A stretch of 6,387 nucleotides of DNA from Ruminiclostridium sp. (GTDB taxonomy: Bacteria; Bacillota_A; Clostridia; Oscillospirales; Ruminococcaceae): assembly GCA_017550775.1 (NCBI GenBank), contig JAFZOA010000512.1, forward strand, positions 1 through 6,387, in the 5' to 3' direction. The translations under genes were made by a program, and so were the position numbers. Shown here one piece after another: positions 1 through 6,387 of this stretch. Under the pieces are notes generated by a model, which was not told where the DNA came from, did not search any database, and was given only the letters and a program-made list of their open reading frames with translations. How positions within the stretch are numbered: position 1 is the first letter of the stretch; every line of letters starts with the position of its first letter.

Positions 1-123
1 ACACCCAAAACTATAATAGCATTAAATCATCCGATTTGCAAGCTATTAAGCGGTTTTTACAGCTTTGCTCCAATAATAAATCACATGATTTCTAAAACCT
101 TACAATTTCGGCTTGCACTTTTG

Positions 124-152
124 TTGCATTTGCAATAAAAATGGTGTATAAT
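124..152 (+). promoter_or_regulatory. Sigma-A type promoter of the sigma/anti-sigma operon
   Basis: The -35 hexamer TTGCAT (124-129) and the perfect -10 hexamer TATAAT (147-152) are separated by the optimal 17 bp, with AT-rich DNA upstream. Transcription should begin near 158-160, giving a leader of about 100 nt before the sigma factor start codon. The -35 lies inside a small palindrome, TTGCA-TT-TGCAA (124-135), which could be an operator. The promoter looks like a housekeeping one; I found no clear ECF-type promoter (AAC at -35, CGT at -10) in the 150 bp available, so autoregulation by the encoded sigma factor is not visible here. Confidence 0.75.
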
Positions 153-161
153 ATTGTTCGA

Positions 162-199
162 TGTGACGAAATTGAAAATATTCTTCAAATCATGTCACA
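162..199 (+). promoter_or_regulatory. Possible stem-loop at the 5' end of the sigma operon leader
   Basis: TGTGACG (162-168) can pair with TGTCACA (193-199) using one G-U pair. Inside it, TTGAA (172-176) can pair with TTCAA (184-188). The structure would sit within a few bases of the predicted transcription start. It might protect the 5' end of the mRNA or, as DNA, act as a protein-binding inverted repeat. The stems are short and AT-rich, so this may be chance. It does not resemble a riboswitch class I know. Confidence 0.25.
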
Positions 200-246
200 A
201 AACGGCTATTCCATTCGATTTATTGTTGAAGGTGCCTTACACAGAA

Positions 247-252
247 AGGGGG
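247..252 (+). promoter_or_regulatory. Ribosome binding site deciding the sigma factor start
   Basis: The AGGGGG tract lies 6 nt before the ATG at 259. It decides the start: the frame is open back to a TTG at 154, but that codon overlaps the -10 box, lies upstream of the predicted transcription start and has no ribosome binding site. Confidence 0.8.
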
Positions 253-258
253 ATAGGA

Positions 259-741
259 ATGACCGACAATGAGCTTGACAGATGTATGCGAAAATTCTAT
301 ACAAATGTTTATACCGTTGCGTTGTGCCGCTGTAAAAACCCGTCTGATGCCGACGACATAGCACAGGATGTATTTCTTGATCTTTATACATATCGCGGAT
401 CATTTACCGGAGATGAGCATATCAAGGCGTGGCTGCTGCGCTGTGCAGTGAATAAAAGTATAGATCTGGTGCGTTCTCACTGGTATAAGTTCTCTTTGCC
501 GCTTGAAGCAGCAGATTACAGGATTCAGGGTGATATTGCTGACAGCAGTAATTCTGAGCTTTTGAAAACTATTATGAAGCTTAACCGGAAAATCGTAGAG
601 GTATTGTATCTGCATTATTTTGAAGAGTATTCGATCCCGGAAACTGCAGAAATACTTGCTATCAGTGAAGCTGCTGTCAGGGCACGCCTATCCCGGGGCA
701 GGAAGCAATTAAAAAAATTGCTTGGTAGTGAAAGGAACTGA
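259..741 (+). CDS. ECF-subfamily RNA polymerase sigma factor (sigma-70 family)
   Basis: This 160-residue protein should bind core RNA polymerase and direct it to a dedicated set of promoters; its length is typical of group 4 (ECF) sigma factors. Sigma region 2 spans roughly residues 5-76. It includes the acidic core-binding segment DADDIAQDVFLDLY (30-43) and the -10 recognition helix around HIKAWLLRCAVNKSIDLVRS (54-73). After a short variable linker (77-96), region 4 (97-157) carries the -35-binding helix-turn-helix, YSIPETAEILAISEAAVRAR (124-143), followed by a basic tail SRGRKQLKKLL. Regions 1 and 3 are absent, as expected for ECF proteins. The ATG at 259 is chosen for its strong ribosome binding site. 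The gene ends 4 nt before a single-pass membrane protein that is probably its anti-sigma factor, so they should be co-transcribed. Codons are AT-rich compared with the facing ABC genes. The family assignment is secure; the regulon and ECF subgroup cannot be told from sequence alone. Confidence 0.95.
   Translation: MTDNELDRCMRKFYTNVYTVALCRCKNPSDADDIAQDVFLDLYTYRGSFTGDEHIKAWLLRCAVNKSIDLVRSHWYKFSLPLEAADYRIQGDIADSSNSELLKTIMKLNRKIVEVLYLHYFEEYSIPETAEILAISEAAVRARLSRGRKQLKKLLGSERN
731..736 (+). promoter_or_regulatory. Ribosome binding site of the anti-sigma gene
   Basis: AAAGGA lies 9 nt before the ATG at 746 and inside the last codons of the sigma gene. It favours the ATG over the in-frame TTG at 722, which would overlap the sigma gene by 20 nt and lacks a visible Shine-Dalgarno. 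The overlap of this site with the upstream reading frame suggests translational coupling. Confidence 0.7.
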
Positions 742-745
742 TAAT

Positions 746-2770
746 ATGGATTATAAAGAACTCTGTAAAAAAGCCTTTTCGTCTGTGAGAGAAACATATC
801 CTTGTTCCGATCACGAAACGGCATTTGAAAATGTCAAAGAAAGGGCGAAGAATATGAAAAATAGGGAAGATAATGTACGGCAAGTTAAGTTTACGGAGAT
901 CACTCCGGAATATATCAAGCCAAGGAAATCGCACAAGGCACTTAACGTGTTCTTTGGAATAGCAGGAACAGCCGCGGTGCTTGCAGGTGCGGTGTTCGGA
1001 CTGAAATTTCTTGCCGATAACGGCGGGCTCAAGGGTCCAGATGTGCAGGGAGCGGGAGCAGGCTCGTCAGCTACGTCGGAAACTGAACCGCCGTACACCA
1101 TGCCGGCAAAGGAGGGCGAGGAGTTTGTCGCGCCGACATCTAATACTGTTGACCCGGAGACACTGCCGGATATAAGCGAGCTTTACGGGAAACCTGTTCA
1201 ATTTCACGATGCTACTGTTTGGCTGAACAGAGCGGAATATGACGGCGAAACATTTACCGCAAGATTCAGCCTTCTGTACAAGGGCGATAATTATGAAACT
1301 TACTCTCCGGAATATGTAAAACTTACTGTCGGGACCCCCATAGATTATACTACCGAGAAGTTCAGTATAGAGGAAGTTCCCGAAGCGGACAGCTACACTC
1401 ACCGCTGCACTTATTCCGTGCCTGTAAAGCTTGAAACCGGCAAGTCTTATGCTATGGGAATAGAGTATCTTAACACAGACGGAACACACACACAGCCTAT
1501 CGAAGCGGACAGACAGCATTATAAATATGTTTACAAGCCGATGATAGAATTCTGGTTTGGTGATCTTCCCGACATTACCGGGCTGAATATAGAAGACGCA
1601 AAGGAAATACTTGAAAACGCACATATAAACTACTCGATCACTCGACATGTAAGCGATGACGTTCCCGAAAACTGTGTGATAGGAACTGTACCGCAGGCGG
1701 GAGCTGAGATCAACTCATCGGTGATCGTCAATGTCCGGATCAGCAGCAGTGTTCCGGCTGTATTTGATGATTTCGCCGCCGCGGGAAAGGTTTACGGACA
1801 CGATTTCATTGATTTCGGAGTTGACGCGAAGGTGCGTTGTTCAAATGTTTTCGGCTTCGATATCATACAGGCGAGCAAGTTCACGGAAAATGTTCAGTTT
1901 AATGAGGACGGAACTATAAGCGGTGAAGTTCCTACTGCAATAGGTTCGCCTAACGAAACAAGAGACAGCATTATCCCTGAGCTTGCGATTCAGACCGTTA
2001 TTCTTGCAAGCACTCCCGAAGAGCGCTTAAAGGGGTTCGTATTAATGAGCGGATTTTACCCCGAAAAGCTTGAACACTCGTCATATTTCAGCGAAAAGCT
2101 CGGGCTTACGGTCGATGTGTATTACGGAAGAACCGGAAATGTTTCCAACGGTTTCGGCACAGAAAAAATAACATCTTGGGCATTTATTGACGACGGAGAC
2201 GCGCTGTATATCCTGAGCTTTGAAAACGCATACTGTCTCGCGGACGTTGAAACAGCGGCAAGGAAAGTGACCGACTATGACCAGAAAAACGGCTATTACG
2301 AAGGCGAAGAAGCCCTCAACATCCTGAAACAGTACGCGGGCGAGGACTACTGCTTCCCGCTGGAGAACTGGACGAAAAACGTGATAAACTACCGCACGCA
2401 CGACGAATGGACCGGCATTGATACAAGCACAGACTACCGCTTCAATATCCCCGCAGAGGAAGGCGAGCCGATACTTGCGGTAACGGGCGGCACCGTGATC
2501 GAAACAAATTCGCGGAATGTCCCCGGACAGGGCGAGGGTATTTACATCACAATACAGGCTGCCGACGGCAGGAAGTGGAGATACAGCCACCTTAGCGACA
2601 TTTACGTCAGCGAGGGCGATATAGTCAAAGCTGGCAACAGAATCGCCGCGGTCGGAGCGACGGGTTGGTGTACGGGTCCGCTGGTGTGCATATCTTTCCC
2701 CGACAGCGAGGTCATTGACCCCGTCGCTGTCGAAGGCGGAATTGTCGGTATTGCGCAAAACATTGAATAA
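746..2770 (+). CDS. Putative membrane anti-sigma factor with PASTA and degenerate LytM (M23) domains
   Basis: This 674-residue protein probably binds the upstream ECF sigma factor with its cytoplasmic N-terminus (1-64) and senses the envelope with its large outer part. One hydrophobic segment (about 65-89) follows a basic stretch (KPRKSHK), giving an N-in/C-out topology. A Gly/Ser/Thr/Glu-rich linker (about 92-142) leads to a beta-rich region (142-262). Next is a PASTA domain (273-333), recognisable by LPDITGLNIEDAKEIL, GTVPQAGAEI and a closing VIVNVRIS strand. Residues 334-540 match nothing I recognise. The C-terminus (about 545-661) has the LytM/M23 framework: TGID, GEPILAVTGGTV, YSHL, VSEGDIVKAG and GATGWCTGP. 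Asp559 and His615 remain, but the first ligand position of HxxxD is Trp555 and the usual HLH is Leu646-Val647-Cys648, so hydrolysis is unlikely. No HxxxCxxC zinc anti-sigma motif is present. The anti-sigma role rests on position (4 nt after the sigma gene) and topology, not on a recognised binding domain. PASTA domains usually bind muropeptides, lipid II or beta-lactams in kinases and PBPs. Confidence 0.8.
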   Translation: MDYKELCKKAFSSVRETYPCSDHETAFENVKERAKNMKNREDNVRQVKFTEITPEYIKPRKSHKALNVFFGIAGTAAVLAGAVFGLKFLADNGGLKGPDVQGAGAGSSATSETEPPYTMPAKEGEEFVAPTSNTVDPETLPDISELYGKPVQFHDATVWLNRAEYDGETFTARFSLLYKGDNYETYSPEYVKLTVGTPIDYTTEKFSIEEVPEADSYTHRCTYSVPVKLETGKSYAMGIEYLNTDGTHTQPIEADRQHYKYVYKPMIEFWFGDLPDITGLNIEDAKEILENAHINYSITRHVSDDVPENCVIGTVPQAGAEINSSVIVNVRISSSVPAVFDDFAAAGKVYGHDFIDFGVDAKVRCSNVFGFDIIQASKFTENVQFNEDGTISGEVPTAIGSPNETRDSIIPELAIQTVILASTPEERLKGFVLMSGFYPEKLEHSSYFSEKLGLTVDVYYGRTGNVSNGFGTEKITSWAFIDDGDALYILSFENAYCLADVETAARKVTDYDQKNGYYEGEEALNILKQYAGEDYCFPLENWTKNVINYRTHDEWTGIDTSTDYRFNIPAEEGEPILAVTGGTVIETNSRNVPGQGEGIYITIQAADGRKWRYSHLSDIYVSEGDIVKAGNRIAAVGATGWCTGPLVCISFPDSEVIDPVAVEGGIVGIAQNIE

Positions 2771-2771
2771 C

Positions 2772-2813
2772 AGAACAGACCCTCCGTATCTATGCTTTAC
2801 GGAGGGTCGTTCT
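2772..2813. terminator. Hairpin terminator between convergent operons, possibly bidirectional
   Basis: GACCCTCCGTA (2778-2788) pairs perfectly with TACGGAGGGTC (2798-2808) around a 9-nt loop. Skipping one bulged A at 2777, AGAAC (2772-2776) also pairs with GTTCT (2809-2813), for 16 pairs in all. It begins 2 nt after the plus-strand stop codon and ends 13 nt before the end of the minus-strand permease gene. Downstream on the plus strand the U content is moderate (within TCTTGTGTAGGGGTATTTAT). On the minus strand the exit is also T-rich but interrupted. Neither side has a long U run, so efficiency is uncertain, but position and stability argue for termination. Confidence 0.8.
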
Positions 2814-2826
2814 TGTGTAGGGGTAT

Positions 2827-5175
2827 TTATTGTTCTACTGCGGCTTGTTCGTATTCATCCGCAGCGTCAACCGGTAGAATATCGCCGTGGTCACGAAGAT
2901 TATCAAGCTCCTCCTGCGCCACCGGCAAAGACGCGTATATTTCCGCCGCTCGTGCCGTATGAGCCTCGGTTATCGGGTAAAGCATTCCGTTTCCGACATC
3001 CTGACCGTAATACAGGTAACTGAGCCAGATATAATATCGCTCGTCTCCCTGATAGCTTGTTTTTTCCGCAGTGTATGACATAAGCTCGTTCAGCAGCTCG
3101 GGTTCATCCGTAAGACGGCGCATTTTGCTTTCCGAGTAGCCGTCTTTTATTGCCGCCCAATCACTGTACAAAGAAGACACGTTCTCGACGCTTCCACTGT
3201 TTTCATCTGTACTTGCTTTTATCAGGAACGCCGAATACCCTGACCAGTCCTGTGCTGTATCTGGGAACAGGTCGATACCGTGAGCTTTGAGCAGCGCCAG
3301 AGTTCTTGTATAGAAAGGATATATCCTGTAATCATAATCGCATATATTAGCCGCGCGTATGCCATTTTCATCAGGTCTGTAGCTGTATATCCTGCGGATG
3401 TATATATTCCTCGGGTGTAGGTATTCGGAACGATAGACCTGCTCAAATGTCGCCGACTTCGCGTCCTCGATTATCGCTTCATACAGCTCGTCGGTGTCAA
3501 CATCTGACTTTACCATATACTTTTCCTGCTCTTCTTCGTCTGTGATATTCGGTCCCTGCGATGATGTCCAGATGTAAGCGAAATCCTTCGTCCTTTCGAG
3601 CGTATATGTTACCCACCTGCCGTCATCACCGCGCTCTGTACGCGACTGGTCTTCGGGTTTCTGATACTGGTACTGCATACTGAATCCGCCGTAGCGGAAA
3701 TACAGATCGTACAAGGTCTCCGCATAGCTCTCATTGAGGTCATACGTGCGCACATCAACATAATTATCCCCATTTAAATACTCTATCATGACATTGACAG
3801 GAGCACGCATACCAAGTCCGTTGCCGGGGTGCTCGGCTAATATCCTTTTGTGCAACTCTGCAGCATCCTCATAAGGAACATAGCACTGCATATTGTCCCA
3901 GTGATAGTTAATAGATAACCTCGCGTTATCCGCGACCGCGGCGGACGGGATATGTGTAGTATATCCAAAGCAGCCGGTAGCGGGGATAACCGCACATATA
4001 CCGAAGCAAACTCCCGCGGTCACGACAAAGCGTGCCGCGGATATAGGGAATTTCTTTATTGAGCCGCCGCCGATTATCTCCATTATGATGAATACGACTA
4101 TTGCCGCGCCTATGCAGATAAACACGAACGGCAGATCATATTTTTCGGTCGTACCGCCGCCGAAAATGCTGTAAAAATTCGTATATTGTACATATTCCGG
4201 CGCGAATATCCTCATTCCGAAGAATGTCATCACAGCAAGCTCAAACAGCGCTGTGAAAGCATGCCGCGCGTATTTGAACACGAACGGGTCGCCCGTGCGC
4301 TCGGAAAGTCTGTGCTTCTGAACAAAGTATGATCCTGCAAACAGCGCGATAACGTATACCGCAATAAATATATATCCCCACGGCGAGGCGTTAAGCAACT
4401 GGTGGAACGATCCCCCCCCGAACGCAAACAGGAAACCGACAGGCGACAGCAGTGACATTACGCTCGTGTCCATAAGGCTGTTGCTGTTTGCTCCATAAGC
4501 GCCGCTCAGCGCTATCACCCACAGGCAGAACGTTGTTACAGGTACCGCCGCCTGCACAAGTACAGTCATTATGACCGCTATGGGAGTGCGCCCACAGAAG
4601 CTTATGACAAACAACGACATAGCCACCAGCATGATCGCTGCGATAATGAACTGCGGTATTATCCTCTCTAACTGCCCGCAATAATACAGGTATTGTGGTG
4701 TGCCGCCGTTCGGATACATATACGAATAATCAAACGAGCGAACATGAGCAGCCACCGCCACGCCAATACCGCAAACAGCGAATATCGGAACAAACTGCGC
4801 TGTGAGCACCGAGAGAAGGTCTCCGAAAAAGCGCTGTGTGTGAGTTACCGGCAACGAAAGATCCATATTTACATAATCCTTCTTATGTAGATAACGGAAC
4901 CCTTCAAGCCCGATTATAAGCATGACCACAAGCCCGCCGAGAACTCCGACTACGAATAACTTCCAGCCGAGGTCGTTGCACAGAGCCTTATAGGTACCAT
5001 AGTTGTAATCAGCCGTATCGCTGAGCGTTTCCGAGACATAACCCTCAAGGAATATCGAATACAGCGGGAATGTCATAAAACCGAACACGGAAAGCAGTAT
5101 TATAAGATATTTCAGCCTTCCGAGACGGGAAATATAGTATTGAAGAAATCTATTCTTCGAGCTTTGAGCCGTCAT
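2827..5175 (-). CDS. ABC transporter permease with large C-terminal domain
   Basis: This 782-residue membrane protein should be the transmembrane partner of the ATPase encoded just upstream. The first half (to about 400) holds 9-10 hydrophobic segments, near residues 22-43, 71-91, 120-143, 169-193, 198-225, 266-285, 306-326, 348-369 and 381-401, with a weaker one near 236-255. Between segments 2 and 3 lies LHKKDYVNMDLSLPVTHTQR, resembling the cytoplasmic LPVTR-type loop of ABC-2 permeases, which fits an N-in topology. The second half (about 400-782) is a hydrophilic, Tyr- and acid-rich domain without membrane segments that I do not recognise. If there are nine spans it would lie outside the cell, if ten inside. 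The ATG at 5175 is preferred because GGAGGG lies 8 nt upstream; an in-frame ATG at 5196 would add 7 residues but has only a weak site. The gene overlaps the ATPase end by 26 bp, indicating coupled translation. A G8 run in the coding strand (4412-4419) leaves the frame intact. The substrate is unknown; B. subtilis Ytr-like transporters are linked to cell-wall antibiotics. Confidence 0.85.
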   Translation of the reverse strand: MTAQSSKNRFLQYYISRLGRLKYLIILLSVFGFMTFPLYSIFLEGYVSETLSDTADYNYGTYKALCNDLGWKLFVVGVLGGLVVMLIIGLEGFRYLHKKDYVNMDLSLPVTHTQRFFGDLLSVLTAQFVPIFAVCGIGVAVAAHVRSFDYSYMYPNGGTPQYLYYCGQLERIIPQFIIAAIMLVAMSLFVISFCGRTPIAVIMTVLVQAAVPVTTFCLWVIALSGAYGANSNSLMDTSVMSLLSPVGFLFAFGGGSFHQLLNASPWGYIFIAVYVIALFAGSYFVQKHRLSERTGDPFVFKYARHAFTALFELAVMTFFGMRIFAPEYVQYTNFYSIFGGGTTEKYDLPFVFICIGAAIVVFIIMEIIGGGSIKKFPISAARFVVTAGVCFGICAVIPATGCFGYTTHIPSAAVADNARLSINYHWDNMQCYVPYEDAAELHKRILAEHPGNGLGMRAPVNVMIEYLNGDNYVDVRTYDLNESYAETLYDLYFRYGGFSMQYQYQKPEDQSRTERGDDGRWVTYTLERTKDFAYIWTSSQGPNITDEEEQEKYMVKSDVDTDELYEAIIEDAKSATFEQVYRSEYLHPRNIYIRRIYSYRPDENGIRAANICDYDYRIYPFYTRTLALLKAHGIDLFPDTAQDWSGYSAFLIKASTDENSGSVENVSSLYSDWAAIKDGYSESKMRRLTDEPELLNELMSYTAEKTSYQGDERYYIWLSYLYYGQDVGNGMLYPITEAHTARAAEIYASLPVAQEELDNLRDHGDILPVDAADEYEQAAVEQ
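4412..4419. repeat. Homopolymer run of eight C (G8 on the coding strand of the permease)
   Basis: Eight consecutive C on the plus strand encode part of Phe-Gly-Gly-Gly-Ser in the permease, near the weak sixth hydrophobic segment. A one-base slip would truncate the protein around residue 255. In this copy the frame is open on both sides. The run is long enough to slip in replication or to cause a sequencing error, but variation cannot be judged from one sequence. Confidence 0.9.
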
Positions 5176-6049
5176 AACCCACGCCCTCCATTTCATATAT
5201 AAATATCTCTTTTAGCGACAGCTTTGTAAGGTCGCAGAGCTTCGGCGAAAGCTTCTCCACGGCGGCTCTCACCTTTTCCGCGCCGCCCGCCGCGATTATA
5301 TCGGTAAGGCTTCCCGTGACCGAAATGTACTTAACGTCCAGCTCGGGCAGATCGTCTGCGGTGATCTCGCGGTCAAACGCCGCGCGCACCTTGACGATAT
5401 CGCTCTTCACGCTGTCAAGCTCGCGGTCGAGCAGCATCTTCCCCGCGTGCAGAAGTCCCACGCGGTCGCAGAACTCGTCGATCTCGCTCAGATTGTGCGA
5501 CGAGAACACTACGGTGAGCTTGTTGTCAAGCATCTCGTCTATCAGTATGTTCTTGATTATCGTGCGCATCATCTGGTCGAGCCCGTCGAAAGCCTCGTCG
5601 ATGAACAGATACTTCGTCCTGCAAGCAACGCCGCATATCACGACGGCCTGACGCTTCATTCCCTTTGAAAACTTGTGCATTATCTTGTCTTCGGGCAGTC
5701 CTACAGTCTCACGCAGCTTCTCAAACAGCTTTTCGTCAAATGTCGGATAGAACCGCTTATAATAATTGCGCATCTGCCCGAGCGTCATGTTTGAATACTG
5801 CACCGTTTCATCATCGACGAAGAACAGCCGTTCCTTTATACCGGCATTGTCGTAAACCGGCTCGCCGTCTATGGTTATAGTTCCGGCGGTCGGGCGGTAA
5901 ATACCGGTCATCATCTTTAACAGCGTTGACTTGCCCGCAGCGTTGGAACCGAGAAGTCCGTACGAACAGCCCTCGGGTATCGTGACGGTAATGTCGTCAA
6001 CGGCGCGGTTATCGCTGTAATCCTTGACGCAGTTCCTTATTTCTATCAT
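5150..6049 (-). CDS. ABC transporter ATP-binding protein, YtrB-like
   Basis: This 299-residue cytoplasmic ATPase should drive the downstream permease. Motifs appear in order: Walker A GSNAAGKST (34-42), signature FSKGMKRQ (127-134) in place of LSGGQ, Walker B YLFIDEAFDGLD with D-loop (147-158), and the switch histidine in SSHNLSEID (H185). The usual Q-loop glutamine appears replaced by Asp in FFVDDETV (76-83), although Gln84 lies close by. All the main catalytic residues (Lys40, Asp151, Glu152, His185) are present, so it should hydrolyse ATP. After about 215 there is a C-terminal accessory region of roughly 85 residues, as in many exporter-type ABC-2 ATPases. The start at 6049 is chosen because MIEIRN begins the normal first beta-strand and a GAGGGAAAGG site precedes it; a longer open frame reaching back to 6214 would overlap the GntR gene. 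It lies 16 bp after that gene and overlaps the permease by 26 bp. The SKGMKRQ signature and the GntR neighbour point to the YtrB-type group. Substrate unknown. Confidence 0.93.
   Translation of the reverse strand: MIEIRNCVKDYSDNRAVDDITVTIPEGCSYGLLGSNAAGKSTLLKMMTGIYRPTAGTITIDGEPVYDNAGIKERLFFVDDETVQYSNMTLGQMRNYYKRFYPTFDEKLFEKLRETVGLPEDKIMHKFSKGMKRQAVVICGVACRTKYLFIDEAFDGLDQMMRTIIKNILIDEMLDNKLTVVFSSHNLSEIDEFCDRVGLLHAGKMLLDRELDSVKSDIVKVRAAFDREITADDLPELDVKYISVTGSLTDIIAAGGAEKVRAAVEKLSPKLCDLTKLSLKEIFIYEMEGVGYDGSKLEE
5184..5189 (-). promoter_or_regulatory. Ribosome binding site deciding the permease start
   Basis: GGAGGG on the minus strand lies 8 nt before the ATG at 5175 and inside the last codons of the ATPase gene. 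It favours that ATG over the one at 5196 and supports coupled translation of ATPase and permease. Confidence 0.75.
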
Positions 6050-6053
6050 TATT

Positions 6054-6063
6054 CCTTTCCCTC
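6054..6063 (-). promoter_or_regulatory. Ribosome binding site of the ABC ATPase
   Basis: GAGGGAAAGG on the minus strand precedes the ATG at 6049. The GAGGG part has 9 nt spacing, while the inner AGG is too close at 4 nt. The site starts just after the GntR stop codon (6066-6068), leaving no room for a separate promoter between the two genes. Confidence 0.7.
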
Positions 6064-6065
6064 TT

Positions 6066-6387
6066 TCACAATTTTTTGCCGAAAATCTCATCTGCGATAT
6101 CATCGACAGCTGCGCGGTCAACTCCCGTTTCGGCAGCCTTTCGCATTGCTGCTCGCAAGGCTTCGGCAGCTTCATTTCTGACAGCCTCCGCAGCTTTACC
6201 GCCGGAAGAAACATAGCTTCCCTTTGCAGGCAGCGAGTAAATCAGCCCGCTTTTTTCAAGTGCCGCATACGCTTTCTGCACGGTATTCGGACTTATGCCG
6301 AGCTCCTTCGCGGTCTCTCTTACCGCGGGAAGCTTTTCATCGGGTTCGAGTATCCCAAGCGATATGAGACGTCCGATCTCGCTGATA
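6066..6387 (-). CDS. GntR-family transcriptional regulator, YtrA-like (5' end beyond the window)
   Basis: The last 106 residues are visible; the reading frame runs off the right edge, so roughly 15-20 N-terminal residues are missing. The winged helix-turn-helix is typical of GntR proteins: KLPAVRETAKELGISPNTVQ, then KAYAALEKSGLIYSLPAKGS and a closing Tyr-Val. The part after the wing is only about 45 residues, helical and Ala-rich, ending in DEIFGKKL. This short dimerisation tail, without a FadR- or HutC-type ligand domain, is characteristic of the YtrA subfamily. Such proteins commonly repress their own operon, whose other genes encode ABC transporters. Here the gene lies 16 bp before an ABC ATPase, as expected. 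A GTG at 6281 could look like a start but falls within the helix-turn-helix and is not one. The promoter and operator must lie to the right of the window. Family secure; effector unknown. Confidence 0.92.
   Translation of the reverse strand, partial: ISEIGRLISLGILEPDEKLPAVRETAKELGISPNTVQKAYAALEKSGLIYSLPAKGSYVSSGGKAAEAVRNEAAEALRAAMRKAAETGVDRAAVDDIADEIFGKKL

Follow-up and report, generated by a model that had tools for sequence, protein, structure and literature searches.

Ectodomains of a clostridial family of candidate anti-sigma factors are probably exchanged as cassettes between ECF sigma loci

In a 6,387-nucleotide stretch of DNA from Ruminiclostridium sp. (contig JAFZOA010000512.1, positions 1 to 6,387, in the following referred to as the window), the gene of an extracytoplasmic function (ECF) sigma factor of 160 amino acids (aa) is followed by a 674-aa open reading frame (ORF; 746-2770, ATG start), which begins 4 nucleotides (nt) past the sigma stop at 741. 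The product is a putative anti-sigma factor with one predicted transmembrane (TM) helix and an ectodomain that contains a PASTA domain and a LytM-like domain of the M23 family. The original prediction, made from these letters, proposed that two wall-binding modules are thereby coupled directly to one sigma factor. This raises the question of whether such an ectodomain belongs to its sigma factor. We compared the locus with its relatives, and the answer appears to be that it does not: ectodomains are probably exchanged as cassettes between sigma/anti-sigma loci of this family, and the 674-aa protein and the ECF sigma factor probably form a transmembrane switch.

One sigma factor, several ectodomains

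There were 35 cross-genome pairs of loci with sigma factors at least 95% identical. Setting aside 14 pairs in which the anti-sigma gene is cut by the locus end leaves 21 pairs, which span seven sigma groups and have median identities of 98.75% for sigma DNA and 94.2% for nt 1-312 of the anti-sigma gene. Ectodomain sharing was measured as the part of the gene beyond nt 420 that is covered by DNA matches of at least 80% identity; this coverage is below 10% in 12 of the 21 pairs, intermediate in seven, and at least 80% in two. Protein BLAST covers more of the same ectodomains (below 10% in three pairs, intermediate in 15, at least 80% in three), so that remotely similar domains, M23 for example, are common to some of the swapped ectodomains.

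The reverse arrangement, near-identical ectodomains next to unlike sigma factors, is seen as well. Ectodomain DNA is 95.4% identical over 1827 nt in loci with sigma factors 48% identical, 92.3% over 1488 nt with 42%, 91.8% over 1816 nt with 49%, and 90.1% over 1770 nt with 54%; the PASTA-LytM ectodomain of L012 (genome G006) and the one in an L040 pair (G001) match at 94.4% over 1734 nt, with sigma factors 44% identical. All these cases are between genomes and none within one genome. Fast evolution of ectodomains in place, without any exchange, would agree with their being the least conserved part of the protein, and the divergent island between the window and G003 (see below) could, if taken alone, be read in this way. 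That explanation is contradicted by the stretches of 1.5-1.8 kb with 90-95% DNA identity on sigma factors only 42-54% identical, unless the contigs in question are misassembled, and we consider it very improbable.

The ectodomains form 26 clusters. Twelve of the 13 clusters with more than one member are found on at least two sigma groups (80% cut-off), and each of the ten sigma groups with at least two untruncated members carries at least two ectodomain clusters. PASTA-LytM is one of the 26 and is found on four sigma groups. A dedicated and stable peptidoglycan sensor, tying PASTA and LytM to a single sigma factor as initially proposed, has in its favor that both domains are real and that their combination recurs in relatives, in some along the whole length of the protein; the proposal does not hold up against the four sigma groups, against the closest copy, in G003, where the PASTA and middle domains are divergent, or against the G004 copy of the same locus, which has another ectodomain, and we regard it as quite unlikely.

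The G003 counterpart of the window's own locus lies on two contigs, which overlap by 125 identical bases within the anti-sigma gene. Its DNA is 97-99% identical to the window over positions 1-900, 87-97% over 901-1500, and mostly 89-100% from 2301 onward; between these lies a hypervariable island (1501..2300, + strand), made of the PASTA domain and the middle domain, where sliding identity in 150-base steps is 52-74%, with flanks at 97% and 92-99%. The end of the island (2045-2300) is 67.6% identical across 250 aligned bases. In the L003 copy, the PASTA domain is 57% and the middle domain 50% identical to those of the window, while the sigma factor is 98% identical. In G004 (L058), the locus aligns with window bases 1-1062 at 98.3% identity, the last base of this identity being 1062 (+ strand), beyond which there is no match and a different ectodomain follows; the G004 gene ends after 296 aa at the contig end. 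Upstream neighbors in G004 include a 91% identical homolog of a gene found upstream in G003.

The two parts of the anti-sigma gene have had different histories. Residues 1-38 (746..859, + strand), predicted by AlphaFold2 at low confidence to form two helices, co-diverge with the sigma factor (Mantel r=0.75, p=0.001, 35 members, three of 38 with an unlike linker having been left out), as an anti-sigma domain should; the same comparison gives r=0.42 for the linker and r=0.28 for the TM helix. The N-terminus is a candidate anti-sigma domain, and PASTA and LytM are not tied to one sigma factor. Among paralogs with sigma factors less than 65% identical, identity at four-fold degenerate sites is 0.55 in the linker, 0.45 in the TM segment, 0.37 in the sigma gene and 0.33 in helix 1, and the raised values in the linker and TM segment fit recombination there.

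Joints of the exchanged stretches

Sharp joints are found near the conserved block that encodes the TM helix. The joint set consisted of 55 pairs with sigma factors at least 85% identical, of which 15 lack the GGLK motif (the pattern used) in one member, one is of low identity, ten stay alike beyond nt 450, and 29 stop before nt 450. In 24 of these 29, the stop falls between -1 and +110 nt from the GGLK codon, the upper limit of this zone being set by the nt-450 filter. The corresponding block in the window protein, comprising a conserved linker, the TM helix and GGLK (residues 44-96; 875..1033, + strand), is where many exchanged cassettes begin, as judged from alignments and joints: nine of 14 long exchanged matches start 47-233 nt ahead of the GGLK codon. 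At the other end, 21 of the 57 family genes that are not truncated have a CCCCGTA..TACGGGG hairpin no more than 90 nt past the stop codon, and 13 of the 18 such sites in six genomes are, by position, directly behind family genes. At one locus shared by G003 and G004, identity is 97.6% ahead of the joint and 97.3% past the end of the locus, and the ectodomain between them is 72% identical or unmatched; G003 carries an extra tandem pair in between.

In the mechanism that we propose, homologous recombination would swap ectodomain cassettes among the many sigma/anti-sigma loci. The usual 5' joint would be the conserved linker-TM-GGLK DNA, and the 3' joint would be shared 3' sequence, either a common C-terminal module or, in some genes, the terminator hairpin, and one sigma factor, presumably with one regulon, would thereby become coupled to new sensors. 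The broader proposition, that a genus-wide pool of outer-domain cassettes moves at the conserved TM joint and rewires one regulon even between near-identical loci, we hold at even chances.

Other sigma/anti-sigma genes in these genomes were examined as a negative control, and proved unusable for this purpose. A second ECF/anti-sigma type is 85.6-85.7% identical in DNA across 944 nt, with no match thereafter, and a possible third type is 75.4% identical over 921 nt, followed by a single 62-nt match; in both (L045 1500-4180 and L044 10579-13286), DNA identity breaks off some 290 nt past the start of the anti-sigma gene. In these organisms, such exchange may be a general trait. Two genes found upstream of family loci, L003 369-2297 (642 aa) and L008 2-1957 (652 aa), have a short common N-terminus (no more than 38 aa, 100% identical) and then differ, as if they were another mosaic gene; they have no convincing Pfam family.

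The chief technical worry is that apparent swaps are artefacts of assembly or binning, in which short reads from paralogs are joined at the conserved TM block, or misbinned contigs pass for separate genomes. All comparison sequences of known origin come from metagenome-assembled genomes (MAGs), 13 of 70 anti-sigma ORFs are cut off by the end of their locus, sigma loci resemble one another more than core genes do, and the G004 joint of the window's locus is on a contig that ends inside the ectodomain. Three 3' ends of M23 domains in G004 (L124 1-253, L125 5009-5192, L126 7507-8009), 89-98% identical to the window, lie at contig ends or within about 90 nt of them, a sign of assembly-breaking repeats. 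Other joints, however, are within genes that are whole on contigs of at least 40 kb (G001:C31, 45.8 kb; G001:C8, 41.4 kb; G004:C23, 45.7 kb), and a given combination is found again in another MAG (locus pairs 4~45, 2~46 and 3~44). L14 was found in nine of 12 genomes, as a single gene in each, including G001, G003 and G004, which are large (3.8-4.5 Mb), and the PASTA-middle island of the window is away from the TM joint. Long contigs and recurrence argue against misjoins as the general cause, and we consider an artefact of this sort unlikely.

Cassette exchange remains the reading that we favor, with a number of observations counting against it. The named comparison loci are metagenome-assembled and others are fragmented, so that false joins in the TM block might look like swaps. 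Some locus pairs keep their ectodomain (4~45 at 98%, 2~46 at 94%, 16~52 at 99% over the part available). Ectodomain identity is weakly correlated with sigma identity (r=0.15, p=0.017, 35 members), as is ectodomain coverage in 57 untruncated pairs (r=0.12, reached by one of 499 permutations). The excess at synonymous sites in the linker and TM segment is modest, and codon bias may contribute to it. Five of 29 joints come ahead of the main zone (-174 to -31), and five of 14 long exchanged matches start inside the ectodomain. The island between the window and G003 can still be aligned (69% over 742 columns, 1401-2128), and therefore holds diverged forms of the same domains, not unrelated ones. 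DUF4179, which holds the cut site of the anti-sigma factor RsiV (see below), is not found in the members and N-termini searched. Finally, sigma DNA is 96.5-100% identical between MAGs whose S2P genes are 73-77% identical (all ten pairs among five genomes) and whose ribosomal region is 88.5-92.9% identical (in the 13 of 28 pairs that aligned on the strand searched); with sigma loci exceeding core genes in similarity, either whole loci have spread horizontally or contigs have been misbinned. We take the comparisons as near-allelic, and make no claim about transfer from species to species.

The 674-aa protein, its family and its operon

The order of genes and domains was predicted correctly: ORF positions and Pfam matches agree on an ECF sigma gene and, 4 nt on, a protein with PASTA and M23-like domains, for which hydropathy and the structural model predict a single-pass topology with one TM helix. 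The outer part contains a β-rich juxtamembrane ectodomain of no Pfam family (residues 131-270; 1136..1555, + strand; AlphaFold2 strands 150-262), which is 89-96% identical at the aa level in L001, L002, L003 and L012, and 36-42% in three more distant ORFs. The PASTA domain (PF03793) follows at residues 274-333 (1565..1744, + strand; E 2.3e-11, 43.9 bits, cut-off 23.2), and then a middle domain without Pfam match (residues 336-500; 1751..2245, + strand), about 50% identical in L003. The M23/LytM domain (PF01551) occupies residues 567-651 (2444..2698, + strand; E 5.4e-16, 59 bits, cut-off 28.7), so that the proposed range of about 545-661 was slightly wide. By sequence, the nearest solved structures are LytM, EnpA, zoocin A and lysostaphin for the M23 part, and protein kinases for the PASTA part.

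The AlphaFold2 model, built on a 34-row alignment, has a mean predicted local distance difference test (pLDDT) of 59.6 and a predicted template modeling score (pTM) of 0.34. Helices 3-17 and 23-36 and a long TM helix 66-91 are of low confidence (pLDDT about 31-53), and the outer domains are modeled as rich in β-strands. The LytM fold near the C-terminus is confident, with blocks mostly at pLDDT 67-93 across 571-640 and Foldseek matches to M23 peptidases, LytM and EnvC; the PASTA region is modeled poorly (33-61), for which reason the PASTA call rests on sequence profiles. A model of L053, with another ectodomain type, is likewise poor (pLDDT 48.7).

Zinc ligands of M23 peptidases are found in the motifs HxxxD and HxH. 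Both are absent from the M23 domain of the window, where DYRFN and PLVCIS occupy those positions, so that the label "M23-like" was apt. The ligand positions led us to reject a catalytic M23 peptidase. Cutting of peptidoglycan by this domain is unlikely, and with the usual ligands lacking, the domain most likely acts as a LytM module in binding or regulation. In other M23-bearing relatives inspected by eye, the full ligand set was not seen, and the middle histidine (YSHLS) is kept. The window cassette of PASTA, middle domain and zinc-less LytM would most likely serve as a peptidoglycan-binding input.

Several known families were looked for. No kinase domain is among the Pfam matches of the window protein at E<=1. 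DUF4179 was found in none of 34 full-length members at E<=0.01 and in none of 25 N-termini at E<=5, and a distant relative, P0032, matches it at 27.2 bits, under the cut-off of 30.1; these profile searches give no support for membership in the RsiV type. No RsgI family is among the Pfam matches of the 34 members at E<=0.01, and no recognized anti-sigma Pfam family is among the matches of the window protein, the members or the N-termini, the search not including the ASDI profile of PMC7406223. PDGLE domain matches are seen in nine of 25 family N-termini (best E 0.00015; one at 19.5 bits, cut-off 27), are weak, and probably reflect the TM segment.

A protein search gave 83 relatives of the 674-aa protein, and a second profile search gave 78 proteins, nearly all in the first set; named relatives are from MAGs, most of them from ruminant guts. 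Many align only with query residues 1 to about 110-180. Eight (P0016-P0023) have an N-terminal stretch and an M23 module 78-89% identical, with nothing matching between. In six genomes with close relatives, the query matches five to 16 places each, some by M23 or PASTA alone. Pfam matches in the ectodomains of 34 members are to M23 (11), PASTA (five), Big_14 (two) and, weakly, H_lectin (one). P0007 (L046 301-2883) carries two M23 modules in tandem, and a separate M23 fragment (L052 184-534) located just past a 519-aa family gene (645-2204) resembles an ectodomain remnant.

Linkage to the sigma gene, the other expectation of the original prediction, is nearly invariant among the loci fetched. 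In 30 fetched regions, an ECF sigma gene is directly upstream of every N-terminal match with room for one. Among 74 distinct family ORFs bearing the N-terminal profile (the ORF of L051 is the L052 gene again and was not counted), 70 have a sigma ORF directly upstream, three of the others are at a contig edge, and in L103 the sigma gene is in an overlapping frame. Tandem arrays of pairs are frequent, and L040 holds four of them. Of 71 genomes from the genus to which G003 belongs, 16 carry the N-terminal family (E<=1e-6), and among 197 genomes drawn evenly from the taxonomic family of G003, it was found in G003 alone; in the extended genome set, G255 and G248 are represented by one region each. 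Carriage on plasmids or phages found no support: 37 of 72,556 plasmid records and 12 of 50,697 phage records matched, none of them across more than 80% of the query, and in each case the five matches shown are to the M23 part only.

The sigma gene itself (259..741, + strand) matches Sigma70_r2, Sigma70_r4_2 and TIGR02937; it has regions 2 and 4 only and an adjoining partner gene, in accord with its assignment as ECF. By sequence reading, a housekeeping-type promoter, P1 (TTGCAT, 17 nt, TATAAT; 124..152, + strand), is located upstream, and TTGNNN-N16-18-TATAAT precedes the sigma gene in 54 of 70 family pairs. A leader motif marks a putative ECF-type promoter, P2 (193..238, + strand), which consists of TGTCAC-N17-CGAT and then a short near-palindrome, AAGGTGCCTT. 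Across 23 non-redundant pairs, the 24-nt leader motif TCGTnTTATnnnnnAAAGnnCCTT scores 18.7 bits, as compared with 8.9-9.3 bits in five single-base shuffles, which were given fewer restarts. Its TCGTnTTAT part we take to resemble ECF -10 elements. P2 may be the sigma factor's own promoter, which would imply autoregulation. The near-palindromes right behind the putative P2 -10 element (window 229-238) vary by sigma group: GAAAGGTCCTTTC, GAAAGCGCTTTC, AAGGTGCCTT and others.

When the P2 of the window was searched for stringently (no more than three mismatches), seven sites were found in six of seven genomes, every one of them coinciding in position with a family sigma gene on its contig. This bears on another explanation, in which ectodomains are the output: variable surface proteins, adhesins or decoys, diversified under attack by phages, predators or the host, with the sigma factor mainly running its own operon. 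Such a function would suit the P2 sites, the size of family proteins, which reach 1126 aa, and the presence of a divergent island within a near-identical locus, as in surface antigens. The stringency of the P2 pattern leaves room for other targets, however; the co-divergence of helix 1 and the sigma factor makes sigma control look conserved, and some ectodomains hold domains of binding type. We view the surface-protein explanation as a real, if minor, possibility.

Past the anti-sigma stop codon, sequence reading finds a terminator-like hairpin (2779..2807, + strand), which is unlike the CCCCGTA..TACGGGG hairpin of other family genes. On the - strand follow a 789-aa protein without Pfam match but with several hydrophobic stretches by eye (2827-5196), an ABC ATPase (5150-6214) and a GntR-type regulator (6066-6386; Pfam and profile matches for both), together likely a transporter operon. 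Families of the phenol-soluble modulin exporter (PmtA, PmtR) are among the ABC/GntR matches, far under their cut-offs. Inside the 789-aa gene (4551-4850), identity to G003 dips to 75-83% between steps of 89% and 99%, a second small variable island.

Relation to known systems

Co-diverging helices, a single TM segment and the operon fit an anti-sigma factor, and the membrane switch proposed here probably restrains its sigma factor. The N-terminal helices of the 674-aa protein would hold the ECF sigma; a signal on the outer part would lead to a site-1 cut, then to intramembrane cleavage near Ala-Ala and degradation by ClpXP, and thus to sigma release. Ala76-Ala77 in the TM helix are invariant in 10- and 25-row alignments and conserved to at least 90% in 34-row ones. 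S2P genes are present in all six family genomes, yet also in 14 of 14 controls.

To our knowledge, sensor exchange at the DNA level has not been reported for SigI/RsgI loci. In PMC6056542, the terms recombination, shuffling and duplication do not occur. According to the accessible part of PMC12203970, SigI/RsgI of Clostridium thermocellum is controlled by regulated intramembrane proteolysis through RseP and ClpXP; RseP cuts XAA motifs in the RsgI TM helices, which Ala76-Ala77 recall, and the cleaved N-terminal fragments are degraded by ClpXP. As in that system, there are several paralogous pairs per genome, with an N-terminal domain and TM helix joined to differing C-terminal sensors; the sigma factor here is ECF, in contrast, and the N-terminal family of RsgI is not among the Pfam matches. 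SigV and RsiV, a lysozyme sensor, resemble the window pair in combining an ECF sigma factor with a single-pass anti-sigma factor whose outer part is wall-related, and RsiV is cut next to its TM helix (PMC6066255, accessible part); the 34 members differ in having no DUF4179, and an exchangeable outer part is not described for RsiV in that part of the paper. Class I anti-sigma domains (ASDI) likewise have N-terminal helices that coevolve with sigma, but fused domains are conserved within their groups (PMC7406223, accessible part), and the exchange pattern found here, in which near-identical anti-sigma domains without known anti-sigma Pfam match carry different fused domains, runs opposite to that statement.

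The two modules of the window cassette have their own relatives. An extracellular PASTA domain is shared with Ser/Thr kinases of the PknB/PrkC type, from which the window protein differs by having a single PASTA domain and no kinase domain, the sigma factor taking the place of phosphorylation. LytM factors of the EnvC, NlpD and SpoIIQ type lack zinc ligands, as does the window domain, and EnvC structures are among its fold matches; here LytM is fused to a putative anti-sigma factor, not to an amidase activator or a sporulation channel. Some SpoIIQ proteins retain the ligands (PMC4982068, accessible part). Judging from titles and the opening parts of abstracts, no published PASTA-LytM anti-sigma factor was found, in line with the original prediction that no system of this architecture had been described, and no report of ectodomain exchange between anti-sigma loci was found either.

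If ectodomains are indeed exchanged in this manner, the input and the output of a signaling pathway would each evolve rapidly and on their own course, and an ECF group's regulon would not have to stay with one signal. The natural chimeras would already display working joints for building new sensors, and the PASTA-LytM cassette would be a specific candidate for connecting the state of the wall to transcription without a kinase. Through cassette exchange, a cell could change the signals to which it responds.

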